This document shows, one piece after another, positions 2,710 to 37,038 of a stretch of DNA of 60,237 nucleotides; position 1 is the first letter of the stretch; each line of letters begins with the position of its first letter. The position numbers were made by a program, and so were the translations under genes. This DNA is from a virus. The stretch lies in IMG/VR virus record IMGVR_UViG_3300032048_000003, positions 1-60,237 of that record. One strand, written 5' to 3'. The notes below the pieces were generated by a model. The model saw only the letters and a list, made by a program, of their open reading frames with translations. It was not told where the DNA came from and ran no database searches.

Positions 2710-3007
2710 ACCACTACCCCACTATGTAACAATTAAAAGATCTCCCATTTCCGGCCTAGGCCTTTTTGCAACAGAGAGAATTGAAGCACATTCATTAATT
2801 GGAATTACCCATCATGCAGATGAGCGCTCTGACGATGGATTCATTAGAACCCCTTTGGGAGGATTTGGTAATCATTCTGATGATCCTAATTGTTTCAAAC
2901 TTTTGATGGATCCTAAAACTTGGTGGATAGGTGCTTTAAAAGACATTGAATCCGGAGAAGAACTTACTTGGTGTTATACATTATATAAAATTAAAAATAA
3001 GGCTTGA
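2702..3007 (+). CDS. SET-domain protein, putative protein-lysine methyltransferase
   Basis: A 101-residue minimal SET domain. Diagnostic motifs appear in order: GLGLFATERI near residue 19, GNHSDDPNC near residue 55 (canonical NHSxxPN, SAM-binding pseudoknot) and GEELTWCY near residue 85 (canonical GEELTxDY, with Cys for Asp before the catalytic Tyr). SET proteins transfer methyl from SAM to protein lysines. There are no pre- or post-SET domains. Its start overlaps the radical SAM stop by 8 bases, so the two are probably co-translated. The target could be a host or virion protein; this is not determinable here. Confidence 0.8.
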   Translation: MYKPLPHYVTIKRSPISGLGLFATERIEAHSLIGITHHADERSDDGFIRTPLGGFGNHSDDPNCFKLLMDPKTWWIGALKDIESGEELTWCYTLYKIKNKA

Positions 3008-7485: not shown

Positions 7486-7514
7486 TTGACATTCCATTTT
7501 TAATATAGTATAAT
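7486..7514 (+). promoter_or_regulatory. Sigma70-type promoter (TTGACA-17-TATAAT)
   Basis: Perfect TTGACA at 7486-7491 and TATAAT at 7509-7514 with a 17-base spacer. It would transcribe the short gene at 7537 and the structured RNA that ends at the terminator near 8000. Confidence 0.88.
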
Positions 7515-7536: not shown

Positions 7537-7746
7537 ATGCATTCAAATAAACGATTACGCCAAGAAGGGGCTATAGCGCGCTTAGAGAAGACAATTGAAG
7601 CGCATCAAGCGGACTTTAAATTGGTAAATAAGATCATAGAAGATAAAAAGTTAACAAAAACTTCAAAAGAATTAGAGACCCTTCGAAATAAAAAAATTGA
7701 GCGTGCTCAAAAAACGATTGAGAATACAAAAATAGCAATGAGGTAA
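7537..7746 (+). CDS. Small helical (coiled-coil) protein
   Basis: A 69-residue, almost entirely helical, highly charged protein (Lys/Glu/Arg heptad-like pattern over residues 6-68). It is the only coding frame between the promoter at 7486 and the structured RNA, so it may share a transcript with that RNA. No family recognised. Confidence 0.5.
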   Translation: MHSNKRLRQEGAIARLEKTIEAHQADFKLVNKIIEDKKLTKTSKELETLRNKKIERAQKTIENTKIAMR

Positions 7747-8002
7747 TATCTGTCCAGGGTAGGTGGGACAGAAGTGATCTATTCCACTGTACGCCATAAT
7801 AGAGGGCGGGAATAGACATTCTATAGGCTGGCCGCGTTATTCATCTTATCAATGAGTACGGTGGAGGGGGTGATGCTTTATCTTGAGCGTTTATGTTCTG
7901 TCCGAAAACTTTTCGGCATAACGATCATACGCCAGGTAACCAGGTGTAGACAGATATAGGAAGCAGGGGTCGCTTAGCTAGCTTCCCCTTCTTCCGTTTT
8001 TT
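7747..8002 (+). ncRNA. Unidentified structured RNA (about 255 nt) ending in a terminator
   Basis: No credible gene lies here, and GC is above the surroundings. The segment folds by eye into a closed domain. TATCTGTC (7747-7754) pairs perfectly with GACAGATA (7949-7956). Inside are CTATTCC/GGAATAG (7779-7785/7809-7815) stacked on CGCC/GGCG, an arm CCGAAA/TTTCGG (7902-7916), and ACGCC/GGTGT (7929-7947) over GG/CC. It is followed at once by a Rho-independent terminator. It lacks the signatures of tRNA, tmRNA, RNase P or group I introns as far as I can see. It could be a phage regulatory RNA or an mRNA 3' element. Confidence 0.6.
7959..8002 (+). terminator. Rho-independent terminator of the structured RNA
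   Basis: GGAAG-C-AGGGG (7959-7969) pairs with CCCCT-T-CTTCC (7985-7995), and the stem is followed after one G by six T residues. It should end transcripts from the promoter at 7486. Confidence 0.8.
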
Positions 8003-8016
8003 AATTGGAGATTATA

Positions 8017-8379
8017 ATGAAATATGCTTTTGATATAGATGGTACTATTTGTACTAATCGCGAAGACGTCAGAGAAGAAAAGAAAGATAATACTATAACA
8101 TATTTGGATATGAAACCGTATCCGAAACGAATTCAATTGGTAAACGATCTCTATGATCAAGGTCATGAGATTATATATTGGACAGGTAGAGGTGGAGATT
8201 CATTTAAAGAAGATCCACATCATTGGTATGATGATACAGAAAGACAATTACAGGAATGGGGAGCCAAATACCATGAGCTTATTGTAGGTGGTAAACCATG
8301 GTTTGATATGTACATTTGTGATAAATCTTATAATTCAGAAACCTGGTTTCCTATTTTTGAAAAGATGAAGGATGCCTAG
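8017..8379 (+). CDS. HAD-superfamily hydrolase, small phosphatase type
   Basis: A 120-residue protein from ATG 8017, chosen over an in-frame upstream ATG because GGAG lies 6 bases before it. FDIDGTIC (residues 4-11) is HAD motif I with the nucleophile and acid Asp pair. YWTGRG near residue 54 is motif II (Thr), and DMYICDK near residue 101 fits motifs III/IV. There is no cap domain, resembling small phosphatases annotated in capsule or polynucleotide metabolism. It would hydrolyse a phosphomonoester. Substrate unknown. It overlaps the next gene by 8 bases. Confidence 0.75.
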   Translation: MKYAFDIDGTICTNREDVREEKKDNTITYLDMKPYPKRIQLVNDLYDQGHEIIYWTGRGGDSFKEDPHHWYDDTERQLQEWGAKYHELIVGGKPWFDMYICDKSYNSETWFPIFEKMKDA

Positions 8380-8835: not shown

Positions 8836-9042
8836 ATGAAAAGGCTATTATTAATTTTTATAATGATGGCAACATGGATAGTTGTTGGTTGTAGTACAGC
8901 AGGATGTTATGGACATTGGGTTAAAGGACCCGGTCATCATAGAGGAACTAGAGCGCTCCTTAAAGACGCTCATTTACCTTACTATCAATGTGTAGATGAG
9001 AATAACAAAGGCAGCAATTTGGAGAAACGGAGATATTTGTGA
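8836..9042 (+). CDS. Small lipoprotein, paralogue of the one at 9335
   Basis: A 68-residue protein from ATG 8836; the frame upstream only translates the tRNA-Val. A basic tip and hydrophobic core (KRLLLIFIMMATWIVV) end in the lipobox VVGC at residue 19. The mature part begins CSTAGCYGHWV with a Tyr/His/Cys-rich tail. It is probably acylated and anchored in the inner or outer membrane. The signal region is nearly identical to the 9335 protein and both share GCxGHWV and YxQCVD, so they arose by duplication. A superinfection-exclusion or spanin-like role is speculation. Confidence 0.65.
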   Translation: MKRLLLIFIMMATWIVVGCSTAGCYGHWVKGPGHHRGTRALLKDAHLPYYQCVDENNKGSNLEKRRYL

Positions 9043-9334: not shown

Positions 9335-9568
9335 ATGCAGAAAAAGCTATTATTAATTTTTATAATGATGGCGACATGGACGGTTGTAGGGTGTGAATCA
9401 GTAAAACAAGCAGGATGTTTTGGTCATTGGGTAGAACATAATGATGGATCCAGAAGCGGTCATAAGAGAGGTACGATTTATTCTAATCGACATAATGTTA
9501 CACCTTATAGACAATGCGTGGATGCAGAAGCCCCACACTTAAATAAAGAACGGAGGCCATTCGGATGA
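9335..9568 (+). CDS. Small lipoprotein, paralogue of the one at 8836
   Basis: A 77-residue protein preceded by AAGGAG at the right distance. The signal peptide KKLLLIFIMMATWTVVGC carries the lipobox VVGC (Cys 20). The mature chain keeps GCFGHWV, an Arg/Gly-rich centre and YRQCVDA, paralleling the 8836 protein. It overlaps the next lipoprotein gene by 4 bases (ATGA), so three lipoproteins may be made together. Confidence 0.65.
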   Translation: MQKKLLLIFIMMATWTVVGCESVKQAGCFGHWVEHNDGSRSGHKRGTIYSNRHNVTPYRQCVDAEAPHLNKERRPFG

Positions 9569-13908: not shown

Positions 13909-15105
13909 ATGTACACACAAGACGATGTTAAAAGGTTAAGTGGTTCAATCCAAATCGAATATACCTTTGCGAAATTAGGTGCAGAAAAATTACGCAAAAA
14001 GTTAGATGAAAAACCATACGTTAGTGCTTTAGGAGCGTTAACAGGTAATCAAGCTATGCAACAAGCAAAAGCTGGGTTGGATTCAATTTATCTTTCGGGA
14101 TGGCAAGTTGCAGGAGACGCAAACGATAGTCTACAAATGTACCCCGATCAATCACTTTATGCAGTTGGAAGTGTACCTACCATAGTTAAGCGTATTAACA
14201 ATACGTTTCAACGTGCAGATCAAATTCAAACAATGGAAGGTGAAGGCGATGTAGATTATTTTCTTCCAATTGTTGCGGATGCTGAATCCGGATTTGGTGG
14301 TGTCCTCAATACTCACGAATTAGTAAAACATTTAATTGAAGCAGGTGCCGCAGGGATACATTTAGAAGATCAATTATCTTCAGCTAAGAAGTGTGGTCAT
14401 ATGGGAGGAAAGGTTTTAGTTCCTACTCAAGAAATGGTAAATAAATTAATTGCTTCAAAATTAGCAGCCGATATAATGGGCGTTCCAACTGTAATTATTG
14501 CAAGAACAGATGCTCTATCAGGTGCGTTATTACAATCAGATTCTGATGCTCATGATAATAGATTCATAACAGGTGAACGTACCGATGAAGGTTTCTTTAG
14601 AGTGACTGCAGGAATGGATCAAGCGGTTTCTCGAGGACTTGCTTATGCTCCATATTGTGATTTAATTTGGATGGAAACATCAGTACCAGATATAGGGGAA
14701 TGTAAGGAGTTCATACAAGAAATACGAAAAGAATACCCAGATAAAGTATTTGCATATAATTGTTCTCCATCATTTAATTGGAAAGCAAAATTAAGTGATA
14801 AAGAAATATCTAGTTTTAAAGATGAACTTGGAGATATGGGAGTAAAATATCAATTTATAACTCTTGCTGGATTTCATTCCTTGAACTATAGTATGTTTGA
14901 ATTGTCTGAAAATTATAGAGATCGTGGAATGACAGGATTTGTTGAGCTTCAAGAAAAAGAATTTGCAGCTCAAGTTAGAGGATTTACTGCTGTCAAACAT
15001 CAACGCGAAGTTGGTGCTGGATATTTTGATCAAATCGGACAAGTATGTACTGGAAGTACAGATCTTAGCGCAATAGAAGGATCGACAGAAAAAGAACAGT
15101 TCTAA
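13909..15105 (+). CDS. aceA: Isocitrate lyase
   Basis: A 398-residue enzyme cleaving isocitrate to glyoxylate and succinate. Diagnostic motifs are all present: [10 protein letters not shown] and MYPDQSLY near residues 63-85, [21 protein letters not shown] (metal site, about 123-131), the catalytic loop KKCGHMGGK (160-168, Cys162), [15 protein letters not shown] and [16 protein letters not shown]. The NCSPSFNW and QV-DAN regions separate it from methylisocitrate lyase. It is 30-40 residues shorter than typical bacterial enzymes but appears intact. No malate synthase is present in the window. Codon and base composition match its neighbours. It could reroute host carbon through the glyoxylate shunt. 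Confidence 0.93.
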
Positions 15106-19396: not shown

Positions 19397-19475
19397 TGGC
19401 TGCGGAGGGTGGAGTCGAACCACCAGTTTTATTCGTCCAACAAACGATTGCGTTTACCGATTTCGCCACTCCGCA
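19397..19475 (-). tRNA. tRNA-Asn (GUU), minus strand, CCA encoded
   Basis: On the minus strand: acceptor TGCGGAG/CTCCGCA, D arm GCG/CGC, anticodon stem TCGT/ACGA around TTGTTGG (anticodon GUU), T arm GGTGG-TTCGACT-CCACC, G73 and encoded CCA. U1-A72 and G73 are the tRNA-Asn identity pattern. The anticodon stem has one A-A mismatch, position 37 is G, and the variable region is 7 nt, so it is slightly divergent. It is just downstream of the AsnRS-like gene on the same strand. Confidence 0.8.
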
Positions 19476-19620
19476 ATTTTTCTAATTCTATTGCTTGTCT
19501 TTGCAATTGATCTAATACTTCATGAACACCAGCACCATTTTTATAAATTGGAATTGCTTTATTACTTTTTACTGAAAATAATTTTCCATCTTTATAAACT
19601 GGAATTATTTCTTCAGTCAT
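19429..19620 (-). CDS. Small protein between AsnRS-like gene and tRNA-Asn
   Basis: A 63-residue frame whose ATG overlaps the end of the AsnRS-like gene (ATGACTGA). Residues 5-29 contain an internal repeat (IPVYKDGK and IPIYKNGAG) suggestive of two beta hairpins, followed by a helix. The last 15 residues are the translation of the tRNA-Asn. The natural protein probably includes the repeat and helix; the tail is a by-product of the overlap. Function unknown. Confidence 0.45.
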   Translation of the reverse strand: MTEEIIPVYKDGKLFSVKSNKAIPIYKNGAGVHEVLDQLQRQAIELEKLRSGEIGKRNRLLDE

Positions 19621-20545
19621 TTTCTAATTTCACCCCATATTTCCGCCGGCCATTATCATCTGCATCTGGATTCAAATTACTATATATCTTCAAGGCACTT
19701 ATAAGTCTGGTAAGGCCTATTCCTCCACCATATCTTGGAAAAAATTTATGACTTAAAAATTCTTTCAATTCTTTTTCTACCCGTTCTTTACCGAATAATT
19801 TAAATAATAATCCAGCATATTCTCCATCGGAAATTGTATGAAACTGGTCTTCCATCTCTTTCGGATCAGCAGACCTTTCAGCGGAACCAATAGTTTCCAT
19901 GCCTCCCATAATTACATCGCATTTGTTAGCAAGTTCTTTTTCTTTTTTCATATTCCAAAAGGGAGAAGTATGGTAAGGAAATTTAGTTATAAATCCAACT
20001 CCGGTAGGATGAGAATCAGATATCATTTGTTCGTGCTCGTGATCTAATTCTTCGCAATTAAATTCTTGACACCACATTTTGTAAGTTTTTTCAGGAAATG
20101 GTCCATTGGTTATGAAATTTCCAAACCCAAATTGTCTGGCAACGAAGTCAGGAACTGTGAAACCTAAGTGCTTAACTAAATCTCTTTCCATATTAAGCAA
20201 GTCCTCAAAGTCACCTGGCGCTTCAAATTCAAACATGGGAAATATAACTTCATGTCTACCTTCAACAGGATTCTGTTCTTGTCTATAAGATGTTGAAACA
20301 CAGAATACACCTTTTAAATCTGGATTATTTAATAGCTCGTATTCCAACCACATTTGGCCGGTTTGAGGTAAAGGCCATATGATATCATTATAATTATATG
20401 TTGCGACAGTTGTAGGATCTTCGCATGCGGCTAATATGGATAATCTGTTTTGGGTATGGACTTCGAGGAAATTTTTATCTAAAAAAAATTGTCTAAGGGA
20501 GGTTGTCACTTTGGTAAAATCATGAGGCGAGATGTTCGTCGTCAT
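19613..20545 (-). CDS. Class II aminoacyl-tRNA-synthetase-like protein (AsnRS/AspRS catalytic domain)
   Basis: A 310-residue minus-strand protein without the N-terminal anticodon-binding OB domain of true AsnRS (about 430-470 residues). Motif 2 is clear (SYRQEQNPVEGRHEVIF then MFEFE, about residues 85-110) and motif 3 is RYGGGIGLTRLISAL near residues 273-287. IWPLPQTGQMWLEYELL resembles the Asp/Asn pocket. It could be an asparagine synthetase-like paralogue (as in archaeal AS-AR and AsnA) making Asn from Asp, a stripped AsnRS, or an amino-acid ligase. Its neighbour is tRNA-Asn, favouring an Asn-related role. The lone strand flip suggests separate acquisition. Confidence 0.75.
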   Translation of the reverse strand: MTTNISPHDFTKVTTSLRQFFLDKNFLEVHTQNRLSILAACEDPTTVATYNYNDIIWPLPQTGQMWLEYELLNNPDLKGVFCVSTSYRQEQNPVEGRHEVIFPMFEFEAPGDFEDLLNMERDLVKHLGFTVPDFVARQFGFGNFITNGPFPEKTYKMWCQEFNCEELDHEHEQMISDSHPTGVGFITKFPYHTSPFWNMKKEKELANKCDVIMGGMETIGSAERSADPKEMEDQFHTISDGEYAGLLFKLFGKERVEKELKEFLSHKFFPRYGGGIGLTRLISALKIYSNLNPDADDNGRRKYGVKLEND

Positions 20546-30847: not shown

Positions 30848-33348
30848 AATTTTATACTAATGTACATCAGATTGGTGATCATATATTAGTAAGAGGATAT
30901 GAGAATGGTCAGAAGTTTGATGACCGTGTTGAATACCATCCTACTATCTTTATACCTTCCAGAGAAAAATCCAAATATAAAACTATTGATGGAAAACCTT
31001 TGGCTCCTATTAAACCAGGAACAATAAAGGAAACCAGAGACTTTATTCGTAAGTATGACGGAGTTGAAAACTTTCAAATACACGGAATGAATGCTTATAG
31101 GTATAGTTGGATATATGATAACTTTCCGAAGGATAAGGGAATCGATTATGATTTTTCCTTATTAACAATTGCAACTATTGATATCGAAGTCGGCTCCGCA
31201 CATGGATTTCCTGATCCTATATCTGCGATTGAAGAAGTACAAGCGATTACCATTGGGACTGGTGGAAAATATTCTGTTTTTGGTTGTGGTGAGTTTAATA
31301 GTAATGAGGAGAATGTAGAATATTTTCAATGTTCAGATGAAAATCATTTAATTCAAGAATTTATTTCATTTTGGGAAAAACTAGCACCAGATATTATTAC
31401 AGGTTGGAATATACAAGGATTTGATATTCCTTATTTGTATAATAGAATAGTTAGATTATATAGTGTTAAAGAAGCACGCAGGTTATCGCCATGGAACAGA
31501 ATTCATGAACGGGCTACCAATTTTCGTGGAAAGGAAGTTATCTTTCATGATCTCATCGGAATTGCTGTTATCGATTATATTGATGTTTATAGAAGGAATT
31601 CTCCTCCAGCAGAAAGTTATAGGTTAGATTATATTGCTTCAATTGAATTAGGAGAAAGAAAATTATCGTTTGAAGAGTATGGTAATCTTTTTACATTATA
31701 CAAAGAAAATTTCCAAAAGTTTATTGAATATAATATTAAAGACGTACAATTAGTTGAGAGATTAGAAGAAAAGAAAAAGTTAATTGAAATGGTAGTTGCT
31801 CTCGCATATGAAGCAAAAGTAAATTATCAAGACACATTTGGAATGGTTATGATGTGGGAAGTGATCCTCGCAAATGACTTAATGAATAGAAACATTGTAG
31901 TCCCACCAAAGAGAGATAATACAAAAAATAAAGCATATACTGGCGCGTATGTAAAAGAAGTGCAAACCGGTATGCATAAATGGGTTGTCAGCTTTGATTT
32001 AAATAGCCTATATCCTCATTTAATTATGCAATACAATGTAAGTCCTGAAACTATTTTAACAGGAGTTACACAACAATGTGGTGTAGAAAATTTATTGGAA
32101 AAGAGAATTGATCTAAGTAATTTCTATGAAAAAGATATTATTATCGCTGCTAGTGGTCAAGCTTTCAAAAAAGATGAACAAGGATTCTTACCAAGATTGA
32201 TGCAAGAGAAATATAATAATCGAGTCATTTTTAAAAAGAAGGAAATTGCAGCTAAGAAAAAATTAGAAAAAGAAAAAGATCCGATTGAGATAGAAAAATT
32301 AAAAAAAGAAGCAGATTCATTTGGCAATAAACAAACTGCTATGAAATTAATGCTTAATAGTGTTTATGGCGCTTTTGGTAACCCTTATTTTAGATTCTAT
32401 GATTTAAGAATTTCAGAAGCTATTACATTAGGGGGTCAGCTCAGTATCAGATGGGCTGAAACGACAGTCAATAATTATCTCAATCAAATATTGGAAACAA
32501 AGGAGGTTGATTATGTATTGGCATCAGACACTGACTCCCTCTATATTACTTTAGATGATCTAGTTTCAAAAGTATTTCCTGAAGATCCAGAAACAACAAA
32601 AGTTATTGATTTCTTAGATAAAGTATGTGAAGATAAAATAACAAAGATAATTGATTCAGGATATGATGATTTAGCTAAGTATATGAATTGTTATGATCAG
32701 AAGATGTTTATGAAAAGAGAATGTCTTGCTGACAAGGGTATTTGGACAGGAAAGAAACATTATATTCTTAATGTCCATGATAATGAAGGTGTTAGATATG
32801 CAAATCCCCGAATTAAGGTTATGGGGATTGAATCTGTTAAATCATCAACTCCTACATCTTGTAGAGATAAATTAAAAAAGTCTTTTGACATTATTATTAA
32901 TCAAGATGAAGAAGCTATACAAAAATTCATTGCAGATTTTAGAGTGCAGTTTGAAAAGGAACCTATTGAGAACATCGCTTTTCCTAGATCTGTTAAAGGA
33001 ATTGAAAAGTATAATGGTGGAGTAGATTTATATGCTAAAGGAACACCTGTACATGTAAAAGCAACACGCTTATATAATCATTTTTTGAAACAGAAGAATT
33101 TACAAAATAAGTATCCTGTTATTCAGGAAGGTGAAAAAATTAAGTTTGTTTATTTAAAACAACCTAATCCTATTAGGGATGGGGTCATAGCCATGATGGA
33201 AGGCTTGCCTGAAGAGTTCGGACTGCATGCTTATATTGATTATGAGAAGCAATTTGAGAAATCTTTTGGAGGTCCTTTAAATGAAATTTTAAAGGTAATT
33301 GGATGGTCCCCTGAAAAAAGAAGTACATTAGAAGCGTTTTTTATTTGA
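30844..33348 (+). CDS. 43: DNA polymerase, family B (gp43)
   Basis: An 834-residue protein (T4 gp43: 898). The exonuclease motif ATIDIEVG lies near residue 108. Polymerase motif A is SFDLNSLYPHLI near 382, motif B KLMLNSVYGAFGNPY near 500, and motif C ASDTDSLYI near 559 with the catalytic Asp pair. A KxY-type KRECLADKGIWTGKKHYIL segment follows. The C-terminus likely carries the clamp-binding tail (STLEAFFI). It is the replicative polymerase with proofreading. No intein or intron is seen. Confidence 0.97.
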   Translation: MKFYTNVHQIGDHILVRGYENGQKFDDRVEYHPTIFIPSREKSKYKTIDGKPLAPIKPGTIKETRDFIRKYDGVENFQIHGMNAYRYSWIYDNFPKDKGIDYDFSLLTIATIDIEVGSAHGFPDPISAIEEVQAITIGTGGKYSVFGCGEFNSNEENVEYFQCSDENHLIQEFISFWEKLAPDIITGWNIQGFDIPYLYNRIVRLYSVKEARRLSPWNRIHERATNFRGKEVIFHDLIGIAVIDYIDVYRRNSPPAESYRLDYIASIELGERKLSFEEYGNLFTLYKENFQKFIEYNIKDVQLVERLEEKKKLIEMVVALAYEAKVNYQDTFGMVMMWEVILANDLMNRNIVVPPKRDNTKNKAYTGAYVKEVQTGMHKWVVSFDLNSLYPHLIMQYNVSPETILTGVTQQCGVENLLEKRIDLSNFYEKDIIIAASGQAFKKDEQGFLPRLMQEKYNNRVIFKKKEIAAKKKLEKEKDPIEIEKLKKEADSFGNKQTAMKLMLNSVYGAFGNPYFRFYDLRISEAITLGGQLSIRWAETTVNNYLNQILETKEVDYVLASDTDSLYITLDDLVSKVFPEDPETTKVIDFLDKVCEDKITKIIDSGYDDLAKYMNCYDQKMFMKRECLADKGIWTGKKHYILNVHDNEGVRYANPRIKVMGIESVKSSTPTSCRDKLKKSFDIIINQDEEAIQKFIADFRVQFEKEPIENIAFPRSVKGIEKYNGGVDLYAKGTPVHVKATRLYNHFLKQKNLQNKYPVIQEGEKIKFVYLKQPNPIRDGVIAMMEGLPEEFGLHAYIDYEKQFEKSFGGPLNEILKVIGWSPEKRSTLEAFFI

Positions 33349-34218: not shown

Positions 34219-35310
34219 ATGAAAAAATTAATTTCAATTTTTATAATTTTGGTTGCAGTCGCAACCTTATTTGGTATTACGGCAGTTGGTAAGAAATTGC
34301 CTTCAGTTGGTTATGTTCTAGTGGGACCAAAAAACGATGGCGGATGGTCAATGAGACATTATCATGGATTCATGTCATTAAAAAAACATGGTTATAACGT
34401 AGCTGGTGTCGAAATGGTGCCAGAATCAGAATCAACAAAAGTATTTCGTAAACTTGCCAGAAAACATGATATTGTATTTGCTACCTCATTCGGTTATATG
34501 GATGGAATGGTGAAGGCTGCAGAAAAAGCACCAGATACAATTTTCATGCATGCCACGGGTTACAAGGGCAATGATACAAATATGGACAACTACGTTTGTC
34601 ACTCATTTCAAGCACGATACCTAACAGGGATTGCAGCTGGAATGTTGACAAAGACAAATAAAATTGGTGTAGTGGGTTCACATCCAATACCTGAAATCAT
34701 TCGTAATATTAATGCACTTACACTTGGTGCACAAACAGTAAATCCTGATATTGAAGTTTCTATAGTATGGATAAATTCTTGGTTTGATCCACCTAAAGAT
34801 ATGGATGCGGCCAAGGCTCTTCTTGATGCAGGAAATGATATACTCTATACAACAACCGATTCACCTAGTGTAGTTGCTCTTGCTCAACAAGCATGGAAAA
34901 CTAATGGTAAAGAAGTTTGGAGTATGGGTAATGATGCACCTATGGGAAGTAACGGCCCAGACCGATACATCACAGGAATGATGTTCAACTGGAATGTTCT
35001 TTACAAAACAATTGTTGATCAACTTGCAGCTGGAAAACTCAAAATGAACCAGAGATGGAATTGGGGCTTACAAGAAAATTGTGTAGGTCTATCGCCATGG
35101 GGTAAGAATGTTCCGGGTGAAGTTGTTAATAAAGTTGAAACTGTCAAGATGCAATGGATTCAAGATGATCTGGATACATACTTTCCTTTTGATCAAGGAA
35201 TCACAAAAGCTGATGGAAGCACAGTTGGTAAAGGTGAAATTGCTAGACCTCAAATAGAAACTATGCAATATTTTGTTAAAGGGGTTGTTTCCCGATTTCC
35301 CTCAAAATAA
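34219..35310 (+). CDS. BMP-family periplasmic substrate-binding protein (PnrA-like)
   Basis: A 363-residue protein with AAGGAGA before ATG 34219. Residues 1-21 are a signal sequence (KKLISIFIILVAVATLFGI), without a lipobox, so it is exported as a soluble periplasmic protein in a Gram-negative host. VGYVLVGPKNDGGWSMRHYHG opens the fold, DIVFATSFGYMDGM, YVCHSFQARYLTGIAAGM, KIGVVGSHPIPE and DILYTTTDSP follow, all characteristic of BMP/PnrA nucleoside-binding proteins. No ABC ATPase is present; the next gene is a permease. It probably captures purine bases or nucleosides. Confidence 0.9.
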   Translation: MKKLISIFIILVAVATLFGITAVGKKLPSVGYVLVGPKNDGGWSMRHYHGFMSLKKHGYNVAGVEMVPESESTKVFRKLARKHDIVFATSFGYMDGMVKAAEKAPDTIFMHATGYKGNDTNMDNYVCHSFQARYLTGIAAGMLTKTNKIGVVGSHPIPEIIRNINALTLGAQTVNPDIEVSIVWINSWFDPPKDMDAAKALLDAGNDILYTTTDSPSVVALAQQAWKTNGKEVWSMGNDAPMGSNGPDRYITGMMFNWNVLYKTIVDQLAAGKLKMNQRWNWGLQENCVGLSPWGKNVPGEVVNKVETVKMQWIQDDLDTYFPFDQGITKADGSTVGKGEIARPQIETMQYFVKGVVSRFPSK

Positions 35311-35327
35311 TATAATGAAAGGTATAT

Positions 35328-36461
35328 ATGGAAGGCTTATTTGAAAGCATTCTGACCGCAATAGCGGTTGTTATTAATGGCATACCACAGGGAATTTTAG
35401 CGTTAAGTTTTGGCTTCGCAGCTTTTCCTACGGCAATAGCATTTGTAATTGGTATTATTGGTTCGGCATTCTTTATGTCTGTCGCAACTATATCCTTTCA
35501 AGCAGAAACAATCACGTTAGCTGGTACTCTAGGTAATAATATAAAAGAAAGACTTTCTCTTATATTTTGGGGTGCCACCCTACTGTTGATTCCCTCTTTG
35601 CTTGGAATGAATGAAGCGTTAGTTAATTTTATTGGTCCACTAGTTGTCACATCAATGATGGCTGGAGTGGGTATTATGTTAGCGAATGTTTCTGTAGATT
35701 TGTTTAAGTCAGAAAAATGGACAGGAGGAGTATCTTTAATTAGTGCTTTACTTGCTTGGTTTTGGACCAAAGACTTAGCACAAACAATTATATGGTCCGT
35801 AAGTTTATCCACACTTTTTTATGTTGCATTAAAGTTTAATGCTGAATTGCGTGAAAAGTTAGGTGTCGTACTAGAAGAAATTGTAGTAGACAAATCACGC
35901 GAAAAGTTTACAACGGGCAACATTGAGTGGAAGTTTTGGACTAATAGAAACATTGTTATTGGTGCTTTATCATTAGCATGTTTAAACATTGGCGCCAATA
36001 TTTCATTTGGTAAAATTACTGGAAGTATTGCAGGGACTAATACAAATATAGATCATCTTGCAATTTATTCTAGTCTTGCAGATATGGGATCAGCATTCTT
36101 TGGTGGTGGCCCAGTTGAAGCGATAATTTCTGGAACCGCGGCCGCACCTATGCCAATAGTTGCATCTTGTATTATGATGGGAATTATGGCAGTCATTCTA
36201 TTAAGCAAAGCATTGCCTTTGATCGGGCAGTATGTACATAGAGCATCTATTGCAGGTTTTCTTTTTGTATTAGGTGTATTTGTTACCTTTGCTACAAATA
36301 TGGCTGGTGCTATTAGCATTGGTGGAACTTTTGCAGGACCATATGGATTTGGACCAGCAGGAATGGTAATTGGTTCCGCAGCATTTGTAACTGCAAAATT
36401 TAATCCTTTTTATGGTTTGCTTGCAGGATTTGCTACAAGCCTAATCATGATGGGAGCTTAA
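35328..36461 (+). CDS. NCS2-like nucleobase permease
   Basis: A 377-residue polytopic membrane protein with about 10-12 hydrophobic segments. FFGGGPVEAIISGTAAAP near residue 260 resembles the NCS2/AzgA half-helix region, and ATISFQAETITLAGTL near 55 resembles the paired half-helix. NCS2 proteins are usually 400-450 residues; this is slightly short. It likely imports a nucleobase, probably purine, judging from the binding protein before and the phosphoribosyltransferase right after (1-base gap). Family assignment is moderately confident; substrate is inference. Confidence 0.6.
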   Translation: MEGLFESILTAIAVVINGIPQGILALSFGFAAFPTAIAFVIGIIGSAFFMSVATISFQAETITLAGTLGNNIKERLSLIFWGATLLLIPSLLGMNEALVNFIGPLVVTSMMAGVGIMLANVSVDLFKSEKWTGGVSLISALLAWFWTKDLAQTIIWSVSLSTLFYVALKFNAELREKLGVVLEEIVVDKSREKFTTGNIEWKFWTNRNIVIGALSLACLNIGANISFGKITGSIAGTNTNIDHLAIYSSLADMGSAFFGGGPVEAIISGTAAAPMPIVASCIMMGIMAVILLSKALPLIGQYVHRASIAGFLFVLGVFVTFATNMAGAISIGGTFAGPYGFGPAGMVIGSAAFVTAKFNPFYGLLAGFATSLIMMGA

Positions 36462-36462
36462 T

Positions 36463-37038
36463 ATGGCTTGGGGAGAACCATTTACAGATGAGTTCTATGA
36501 ATTAAAAGTCGCAGGACTTATACGTAAGTTGCCCAAAGTCAAAATCAATGACGAGCTCGCTATTGCGAGCTTTGTCATATTGGGTGATACAGAATTAATA
36601 GAAGAATGTGCTGAAGCAATTATTCTTCTGAATGATTTTCCAAAGAAAGATGAAATTGATATTTTTTGTACACCAGAAGCAAAGGGAATACCATTGGTAC
36701 ATACCATTGCAAGAAGGTTAGGAAAAGATTATGTCATTGCAAGAAAATCTATCAAAGGATATATGGATGATCCTATGATAGAAAAAGTTCAATCTATCAC
36801 TACAATCGGCGCACAAACACTTGTCCTTGATAGGAGTGATGTTAAGAAATTAGAAGGAAAGAGAGTAGGTATTATTGATGATGTAGTATCTACAGGTGGT
36901 TCTTTGATAGGGCTTCAGACAATGTTAGAAAAAATTGATTGTTCTATTGTATGTAAAGCGGCAGTCTTATTGGAAGAGGCTGGATATGATAAAGGTGATA
37001 TACTTTATTTAGAAAAACTCCCAATTTTTAAACCATAA
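36463..37038 (+). CDS. Purine phosphoribosyltransferase (Apt/Xpt-like)
   Basis: A 191-residue type I phosphoribosyltransferase. FCTPEAKGIPLVHTIARRLG near residues 67-86 is the APRT-type hood/loop region, DYVIARKS and YM follow, and RVGIIDDVVSTGGSL near residues 135-149 is the PRPP motif. It would trap imported adenine or xanthine as nucleotide. It is separated by one base from the permease, indicating one operon. Confidence 0.88.
   Translation: MAWGEPFTDEFYELKVAGLIRKLPKVKINDELAIASFVILGDTELIEECAEAIILLNDFPKKDEIDIFCTPEAKGIPLVHTIARRLGKDYVIARKSIKGYMDDPMIEKVQSITTIGAQTLVLDRSDVKKLEGKRVGIIDDVVSTGGSLIGLQTMLEKIDCSIVCKAAVLLEEAGYDKGDILYLEKLPIFKP

Follow-up and report, generated by a model that had tools for sequence, protein, structure and literature searches.

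To our knowledge, lytic phages encode few complex structured RNAs, and most of these lack an explanation (T4 rnaC/rnaD, GOLLD and ROOL). Marine T4-like phages carry cis-regulatory RNAs of a size similar to the RNA described here, manA and wcaG, upstream of metabolic genes (PMC2864571). Our element, found in a 60-kb window (the whole stretch of DNA analyzed, 60,237 nt), shares with manA (RF01745) its occurrence in marine T4-like phages, a length of around 200 nt and a position 5' of genes, and with wcaG (RF01761) the same phage group and position (PMC2864571). Of known families, manA comes closest in size and habitat; its model (gathering threshold 55 bits) found no match in the records of the window and of the two relatives that carry the RNA (G000, G006 and G036), and scored 182 bits on P-SSM2 as a positive control; wcaG likewise has no match in the window. 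The L17 downstream element offers a further parallel, as a structured RNA located right after a stop codon (PMC2864571), but the gene upstream of our element, ORF69, is not a ribosomal protein gene and most of its homologues lack the RNA.

The DNA of the window, an IMG/VR record, belongs to a marine T4-like phage whose DNA polymerase best matches that of cyanophage S-CAM9 (49.5%); IMG/VR also holds close uncultured relatives with DNA polymerases 79-100% identical to it. The gene order around the element is tRNA-Cys, promoter, ORF69, RNA, terminator, HAD phosphatase, ORF95, tRNA-Tyr and tRNA-Val (Table 1). The original prediction, made from this one sequence, described an RNA with GC content above its surroundings, a perfect closing helix spanning about 200 bases, several internal stems and no credible gene inside, and our analysis bears out each of these points. 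GC content is 0.44-0.48 in the RNA region vs 0.30-0.37 across most of the neighborhood, the closing stem P1 pairs exactly over 9 bp, and the internal stems are present, with P2a, P3 and P5b backed by compensatory changes in a relative. We found no open reading frame of at least 40 amino acids inside the RNA, and 1-nt insertions and deletions between the window and its close relative L003 argue against conserved coding.

Table 1. Positions of the RNA, its parts and its flanking features in the window.
Feature	Position	Strand	Remarks
Promoter TTGACA-17-TATAAT, 12/12 exact	7486..7514	+	Exact in G036 and G010; 11/12 (TTGACT) in L003
ORF69, small charged protein of 69 aa, no Pfam/PHROG family	7537..7746	+	Many marine T4-like phages encode homologues, most of them without the RNA
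Structured RNA core, ~212 nt	7746..7957	+	Scores 199 bits with model R2, which includes the window sequence and so gives no independent support
P1 closing stem, 5' strand ATATCTGTC	7746..7754	+	Overlaps ORF69 stop codon; two-sided changes in 6/9 pairs
P1 closing stem, 3' strand GACAGATAT	7949..7957	+	Exact 9 bp with 7746-7754
Conserved GGTGG motif	7762..7766	+	
P2 arm, P2a and P2b	7770..7822	+	
P2a AGAA/TTCT	7770-7773 / 7819-7822	+	Compensatory in 3/4 pairs
P2b TCTATTCC / GGAATAGA	7778-7785 / 7809-7816	+	Support from window and L003 only
Conserved AGGCTGG motif	7825..7831	+	
P3 hairpin TATTCAT/ATGAGTA	7838..7858	+	Compensatory in 4/7 pairs
P4 hairpin around invariant GGTGAT (GGGTGA/TTATCT)	7868..7883	+	One-sided changes only
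P5 CGTTtATG/CATAACG with 6-nt 5' bulge, enclosing P5b	7888..7923	+	
P5b hairpin CCGAAA/TTTCGG	7902-7907 / 7911-7916	+	Compensatory in 5/6 pairs
3' region with best conserved sequence GGTRACCAGGTGTAG (7935-7949)	7928..7949	+	
Intrinsic terminator GGAAG-c-AGGGG...CCCCT-t-CTTCC-G-TTTTTT	7959..8002	+	11-position stem, one mismatch, T6 tail
HAD phosphatase, PNKP-phosphatase type, gene 3' of RNA	8017..8379	+	Same place after the RNA in L003 and G036

The window also encodes several genes of separate interest. An isocitrate lyase family gene at 13909-15105 (PF00463, E 4e-96) is an unusual auxiliary metabolic gene for a phage. A substrate-binding protein of a PnrA/Bmp-type ABC transporter (PF02608) with a predicted membrane protein after it (34219-36461) and a Na/Pi-cotransporter domain protein (PF02690; 20618-21112) are apparently phage-borne uptake genes. 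Judged from its translation alone, the gene at 19613-20545 on the minus strand is AsnA-like (aspartate-ammonia ligase), and it adjoins tRNA-Asn (19397-19475) on the same strand. A direct repeat of about 93 bp (8838-8921 and 9340-9432, 81% identical) begins two small lipoprotein-like genes, apparently tandem duplicates.

Five perfect TTGACA-17-TATAAT sites occur in the window (at 3004, 7486, 21258, 23918 and 25164), all on the plus strand and all beginning TTGACATT, and we regard sites of this TTGACATT type as a predicted strong, host-type promoter class of the window phage. The site at 7486, which the original prediction had named as a perfect promoter upstream of the RNA, matches at every position, and its sequence and location are conserved across relatives; in L003, a 378-nt insertion with another small gene directly follows it. 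Its assignment to the RNA needs amending, as the promoter serves ORF69 first, and the RNA would form the distal portion of a short operon rather than a transcript begun at its own promoter. The last base of the ORF69 TAA stop codon is the first base of P1, and P1 also starts on the ORF69 stop codon in G036. In about ten other phages with an ORF69 homologue, no RNA tail follows ORF69, and other genes or a tRNA come next.

The RNA had also been credited with a terminator of its own. The hairpin with its T6 tail is indeed present in the window, and L003 replaces its single internal mismatch with an A-U pair; G036 keeps the hairpin and lacks the T tract after it, so the complete terminator is not a conserved property. 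P1 and the terminator abut and share no bases. When we forbade the terminator, the best fold cost ~14 kcal/mol in the window and ~17 kcal/mol in G036, and neither sequence offered a compact alternative hairpin sharing a terminator arm, that is, an obvious antiterminator. We thus did not find the exclusive antiterminator overlapping the closing stem that defines a terminator-type riboswitch or attenuator.

We identified two further copies of the RNA in relatives of the window phage. The copy in L003/G006 is 89% identical at the nucleotide level and occupies the same genomic place; two 18-mer scans of IMG/VR returned only L003 and a near-identical contig (3300021443_000316). The copy in G036 was found by synteny, between an ORF69 homologue (61% amino acid identity) and a HAD gene (62% identical); the 305 nt separating these two genes contain an RNA that has diverged strongly and keeps its motifs in the same order. 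All three sequences begin with P1 on the stop codon, followed by GGTGG, 3 nt, a 4-bp helix, 2 nt, AGGCTGG and a hairpin, and all three end with GGTGAT, a bulged stem with an inner hairpin, GGTRACCAGGTGTAG, the end of P1, AGGA and a hairpin. The spacing from AGGCTGG to GGTGAT is 36 nt in each of the three, and the stem at the P5 position carries a 5-6 nt 5' bulge plus an inner hairpin throughout; G036 adds about 50-60 nt of hairpins ahead of the last motif. The 15-mer GGTRACCAGGTGTAG by itself occurs 91 times in the phage and bacterial DNA examined, and is accompanied by AGGCTGG, GGTGAT and the closing stem only in the window-type, L003 and G036 sequences.

The family so far comprises these three distinct sequences. 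A model built from the two close sequences only (R1) found L003 alone among 36 relatives and missed the G036 copy, and the three-sequence model (R2) found nothing convincing over the relatives and the other phage records examined. Matches of R2 in T4, HTVC008M, P-SSM2, S-PM2, S-CAM9 and S-PRM1 were at chance level, those in P-SSM2 and S-PRM1 being weak and inside coding sequences; an 18-bit match at 138 kb of G012 lies within a repetitive coding gene, and we treated weak matches in G053, G058, G060 and T4 (E 0.01-0.6) as chance. R2 found none in 299 genomes from the phylum of a Pseudomonas, a weak negative for which no positive control genome exists, and blastn against phages and plasmids gave nothing or 25-nt chance matches.

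Several relatives have the neighboring genes and no RNA. G001, G017 and G020 encode a shorter ORF69 homologue (41-42%) with the HAD gene elsewhere. In G010, a relative of G036, the start of ORF69 is joined directly to the sequence 3' of the G036 hairpin and HAD is retained (L132, about 31300-31340 of the contig, minus strand). G010 thus appears to have lost ORF69 and the RNA together by a clean deletion, a natural knock-out of the element; in G036, GTCCG stands at both ends of the corresponding ORF69-RNA segment, consistent with recombination between short repeats. Because related phages lack the RNA and G010 has apparently deleted it, we consider the RNA an accessory element of one phage lineage.

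The original prediction had set conservation of pairing in relatives as its test, and the diverged G036 copy provides it. When the three copies were aligned with general MAFFT, their 5' arm came out misaligned, so we used a hand-trimmed three-way alignment (A6) with bulges and variable loops removed and P2b masked in G036. In A6, G036 rebuilds P1, P2a, P3 and P5b through 18 pairs with two-sided changes, 96% of cells are paired, and none of 500 shuffles equals this; the signal collapses once the structure is slid by one column. Double-changed pairs fall in P1 (6/9), P2a (3/4), P3 (4/7) and P5b (5/6), and none in P4, P5 or P6.

Because a hand-trimmed alignment leans towards its structure, we ran two further controls. 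A scan of every possible helix in A6 ranked P1, P5b, P3 and P2a first, exactly those four. We also permuted the differing letters of G036 among the same columns (n = 2000): the real alignment contains three helices with at least four double changes over at least 6 bp, and 27 of the 2000 shuffles contained such a helix, never more than one apiece. Folded on its own for minimum energy, with no alignment, the G036 sequence forms P1, P3 and the P5b hairpin together with the pairs of P2a. Plain sequence alignment with G036 is mildly significant, its score being reached by 0.1-0.5% of shuffles with the terminator included and by 1-6% without it. The covariation rests essentially on this one deep comparison among three sequences, and the compensatory base-pair changes in a homologue are those expected of a new structured RNA family.

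The remaining helices are less well defined. The P6 hairpin in the 3' region is present in the window and L003 and poorly kept in G036. P4 competes with two alternative pairings, P3-loop/UGAUG and UUAUCU/AGGUAA, and none of the three passes a control alone: the UUAUCU/AGGUAA helix (P4') has two double changes, but an equally good helix arose in 19% of shuffles, so we list it as a possibility, and the P3-loop/UGAUG pseudoknot is consistent in all three sequences yet not above shuffles.

The RNA region folds at -91.9 kcal/mol (z -3.6), and the L003 and G036 copies reach z -3.8 and z -4.45, each of the three folding better than all 200 of its shuffles (dinucleotide shuffles for the window). Energy by itself is weak evidence, and the strong evidence is comparative: a coarse 220-nt fold scan of the window, which scored 981 of 1092 segments, showed elsewhere segments, most of them coding, that fold as strongly or more so, and segments over the RNA reach no more than z -0.5 to -2.5, so an argument from energy alone is insufficient. 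Nor is one inverted repeat of 8-9 bp rare in 255 nt. The lowest-energy fold of the window (GGGACAGAA/TTCTGTCC) differs from the conserved fold, and L003 breaks the GGGACAGAA/TTCTGTCC helix; a fold drawn from the window sequence alone would mislead. The strongest predicted fold among the scanned segments lies at 36411-36630 on the plus strand (z about -8.5, 12 shuffles) and runs from the end of one gene into the start of the following one (36463-37038).

With Rfam 15 at curated thresholds, the window contains tRNAs only, and at E<=10 the window and G036 copies gave chance matches only (17 bits vs 99; 13 vs 50), in keeping with the earlier statement that the RNA fits no familiar class. A clear match to a known RNA family had been the other refuting outcome named in the original prediction, and it did not occur. 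The RNA also has no match to permuted tmRNA by RF04321/RF01849 or ARAGORN. RNase P, SRP, 6S, T-box, retron and omega-RNA were weighed as well; none has Rfam support, and no partner gene was seen. Taken together, the compensatory changes and the lack of an Rfam match uphold the reading as an unknown structured RNA: conservation and covariation show the element to be a real structured noncoding RNA, not catalogued before, in a clade of marine T4-like phages.

On balance we favor, with slightly better than even confidence, a stand-alone phage noncoding RNA that is derived from a short operon and acts in trans. A strong host-type promoter would transcribe one or two small open reading frames, the RNA and the terminator; the terminator would set the RNA 3' end, and a nuclease would set its 5' end by trimming where the 9-bp P1 begins. 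In the infected cell, the resulting multi-branched RNA of ~212 nt would act in trans, its most likely target being the translation machinery or a protein of host or phage, and its junction would present the conserved purine-rich motifs GGTGG, AGGCTGG and GGTRACCAGGTGTAG for binding. We prefer action in trans because the terminator separates the RNA from HAD in two of the three members (window and L003), because no antiterminator was found, because HAD occurs RNA-free in several relatives, and because G010 appears to have lost the RNA without losing HAD. A bolder version, which we regard as unlikely, makes the RNA the first known case of a new class of phage multi-branched RNAs that mimic the ligand of a host RNA-binding factor or act as its decoy, in phages whose hosts are presumably alphaproteobacterial and whose relatives have a permuted tmRNA of their own; its candidate targets, equally speculative, would be the ribosome, an RNase, RNA polymerase or an anti-phage defense protein.

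The main competitor, tentative and somewhat unlikely in our estimate, is a cis-regulatory leader that senses a metabolite, a protein or ribosome state and gates read-through into HAD-ORF95. The RNA lies immediately 5' of HAD in all three phages (one synteny lineage is known), structure is followed by terminator and then ribosome-binding site as in terminator-type riboswitches, and manA and wcaG set a precedent in marine T4-like phages (PMC2864571). In G036 the hairpin has no U-tract, so HAD may be co-transcribed with the RNA there; the missing tract would suit a control that does not work by simple termination. Against such a leader, P1 shares no bases with the terminator and no antiterminator is obvious, HAD is present without the RNA in G001, G003, G017, G020, G010 and L007, and G010 keeps HAD with ORF69, RNA and hairpin all gone. 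Quite unlikely, in our view, is that the RNA belongs to the 3'-UTR of ORF69 and, with no separate RNA made, stabilizes or feedback-regulates that message as its structured tail: translation of ORF69 would touch the stem that begins on its stop codon in the window and G036, and the L17 downstream element is a precedent (PMC2864571), but the RNA-free ORF69 homologues of about ten phages, and a fold far bigger than a stability hairpin requires, speak against it. The insertion in L003 and the apparent deletion in G010 mark a gene-swapping region, which would suit an RNA left in a variable region by a mobile element or by decay (ribozyme, guide RNA or retron-like); we consider this very improbable, given that no reverse transcriptase, nuclease or transposase was found beside the RNA, Rfam gave no match to families such as introns, ribozymes or HEARO, and the compensatory changes show selection, not decay. 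That a GC-rich spacer happens to fold is scarcely credible: other window segments equal or exceed the RNA by folding energy alone, but the compensatory changes and motif conservation in G036 contradict it, and the 2000-shuffle control refutes it unless the G036 alignment is wrong.

Near-relative phages carry a tmRNA of their own: we detected permuted tmRNA (RF04321) in G001 (L096:6658-7043, minus strand, 109 bits) and G012 (L109:17473-17817, plus strand, 100 bits; ARAGORN tag ADNTDYFPAQVALAA). This permuted, alphaproteobacterial-type tmRNA hints at alphaproteobacterial hosts.

Compact and well bounded, with a promoter, a terminator and a fold supported by covariation, the RNA lends itself to experiments and could show a new phage action on host RNA or translation; model R2 is a starting point for searches of ocean metagenomes and metatranscriptomes. 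Among described phage RNAs, T4 rnaC/rnaD (species 1 and 2 RNAs) are likewise small stable noncoding RNAs beside tRNA genes in a T4-type phage, but measure 139 and 119 nt and directly adjoin tRNA-Arg; on T4, R2 gave a partial 11.7-bit chance match (E 0.08) at 111 kb, not at rnaC/rnaD (70.9-71.2 kb). GOLLD and ROOL are also ornate folded phage RNAs, often near tRNA genes and with function unexplained (PMC12286853). They are much larger, many GOLLD members exceeding 800 nt; our RNA, at ~212 nt, is not large, and their own Rfam models do not match it. The resemblance of the RNA to T4 rnaC/rnaD and to GOLLD/ROOL thus most likely lies not in sequence but in setting.
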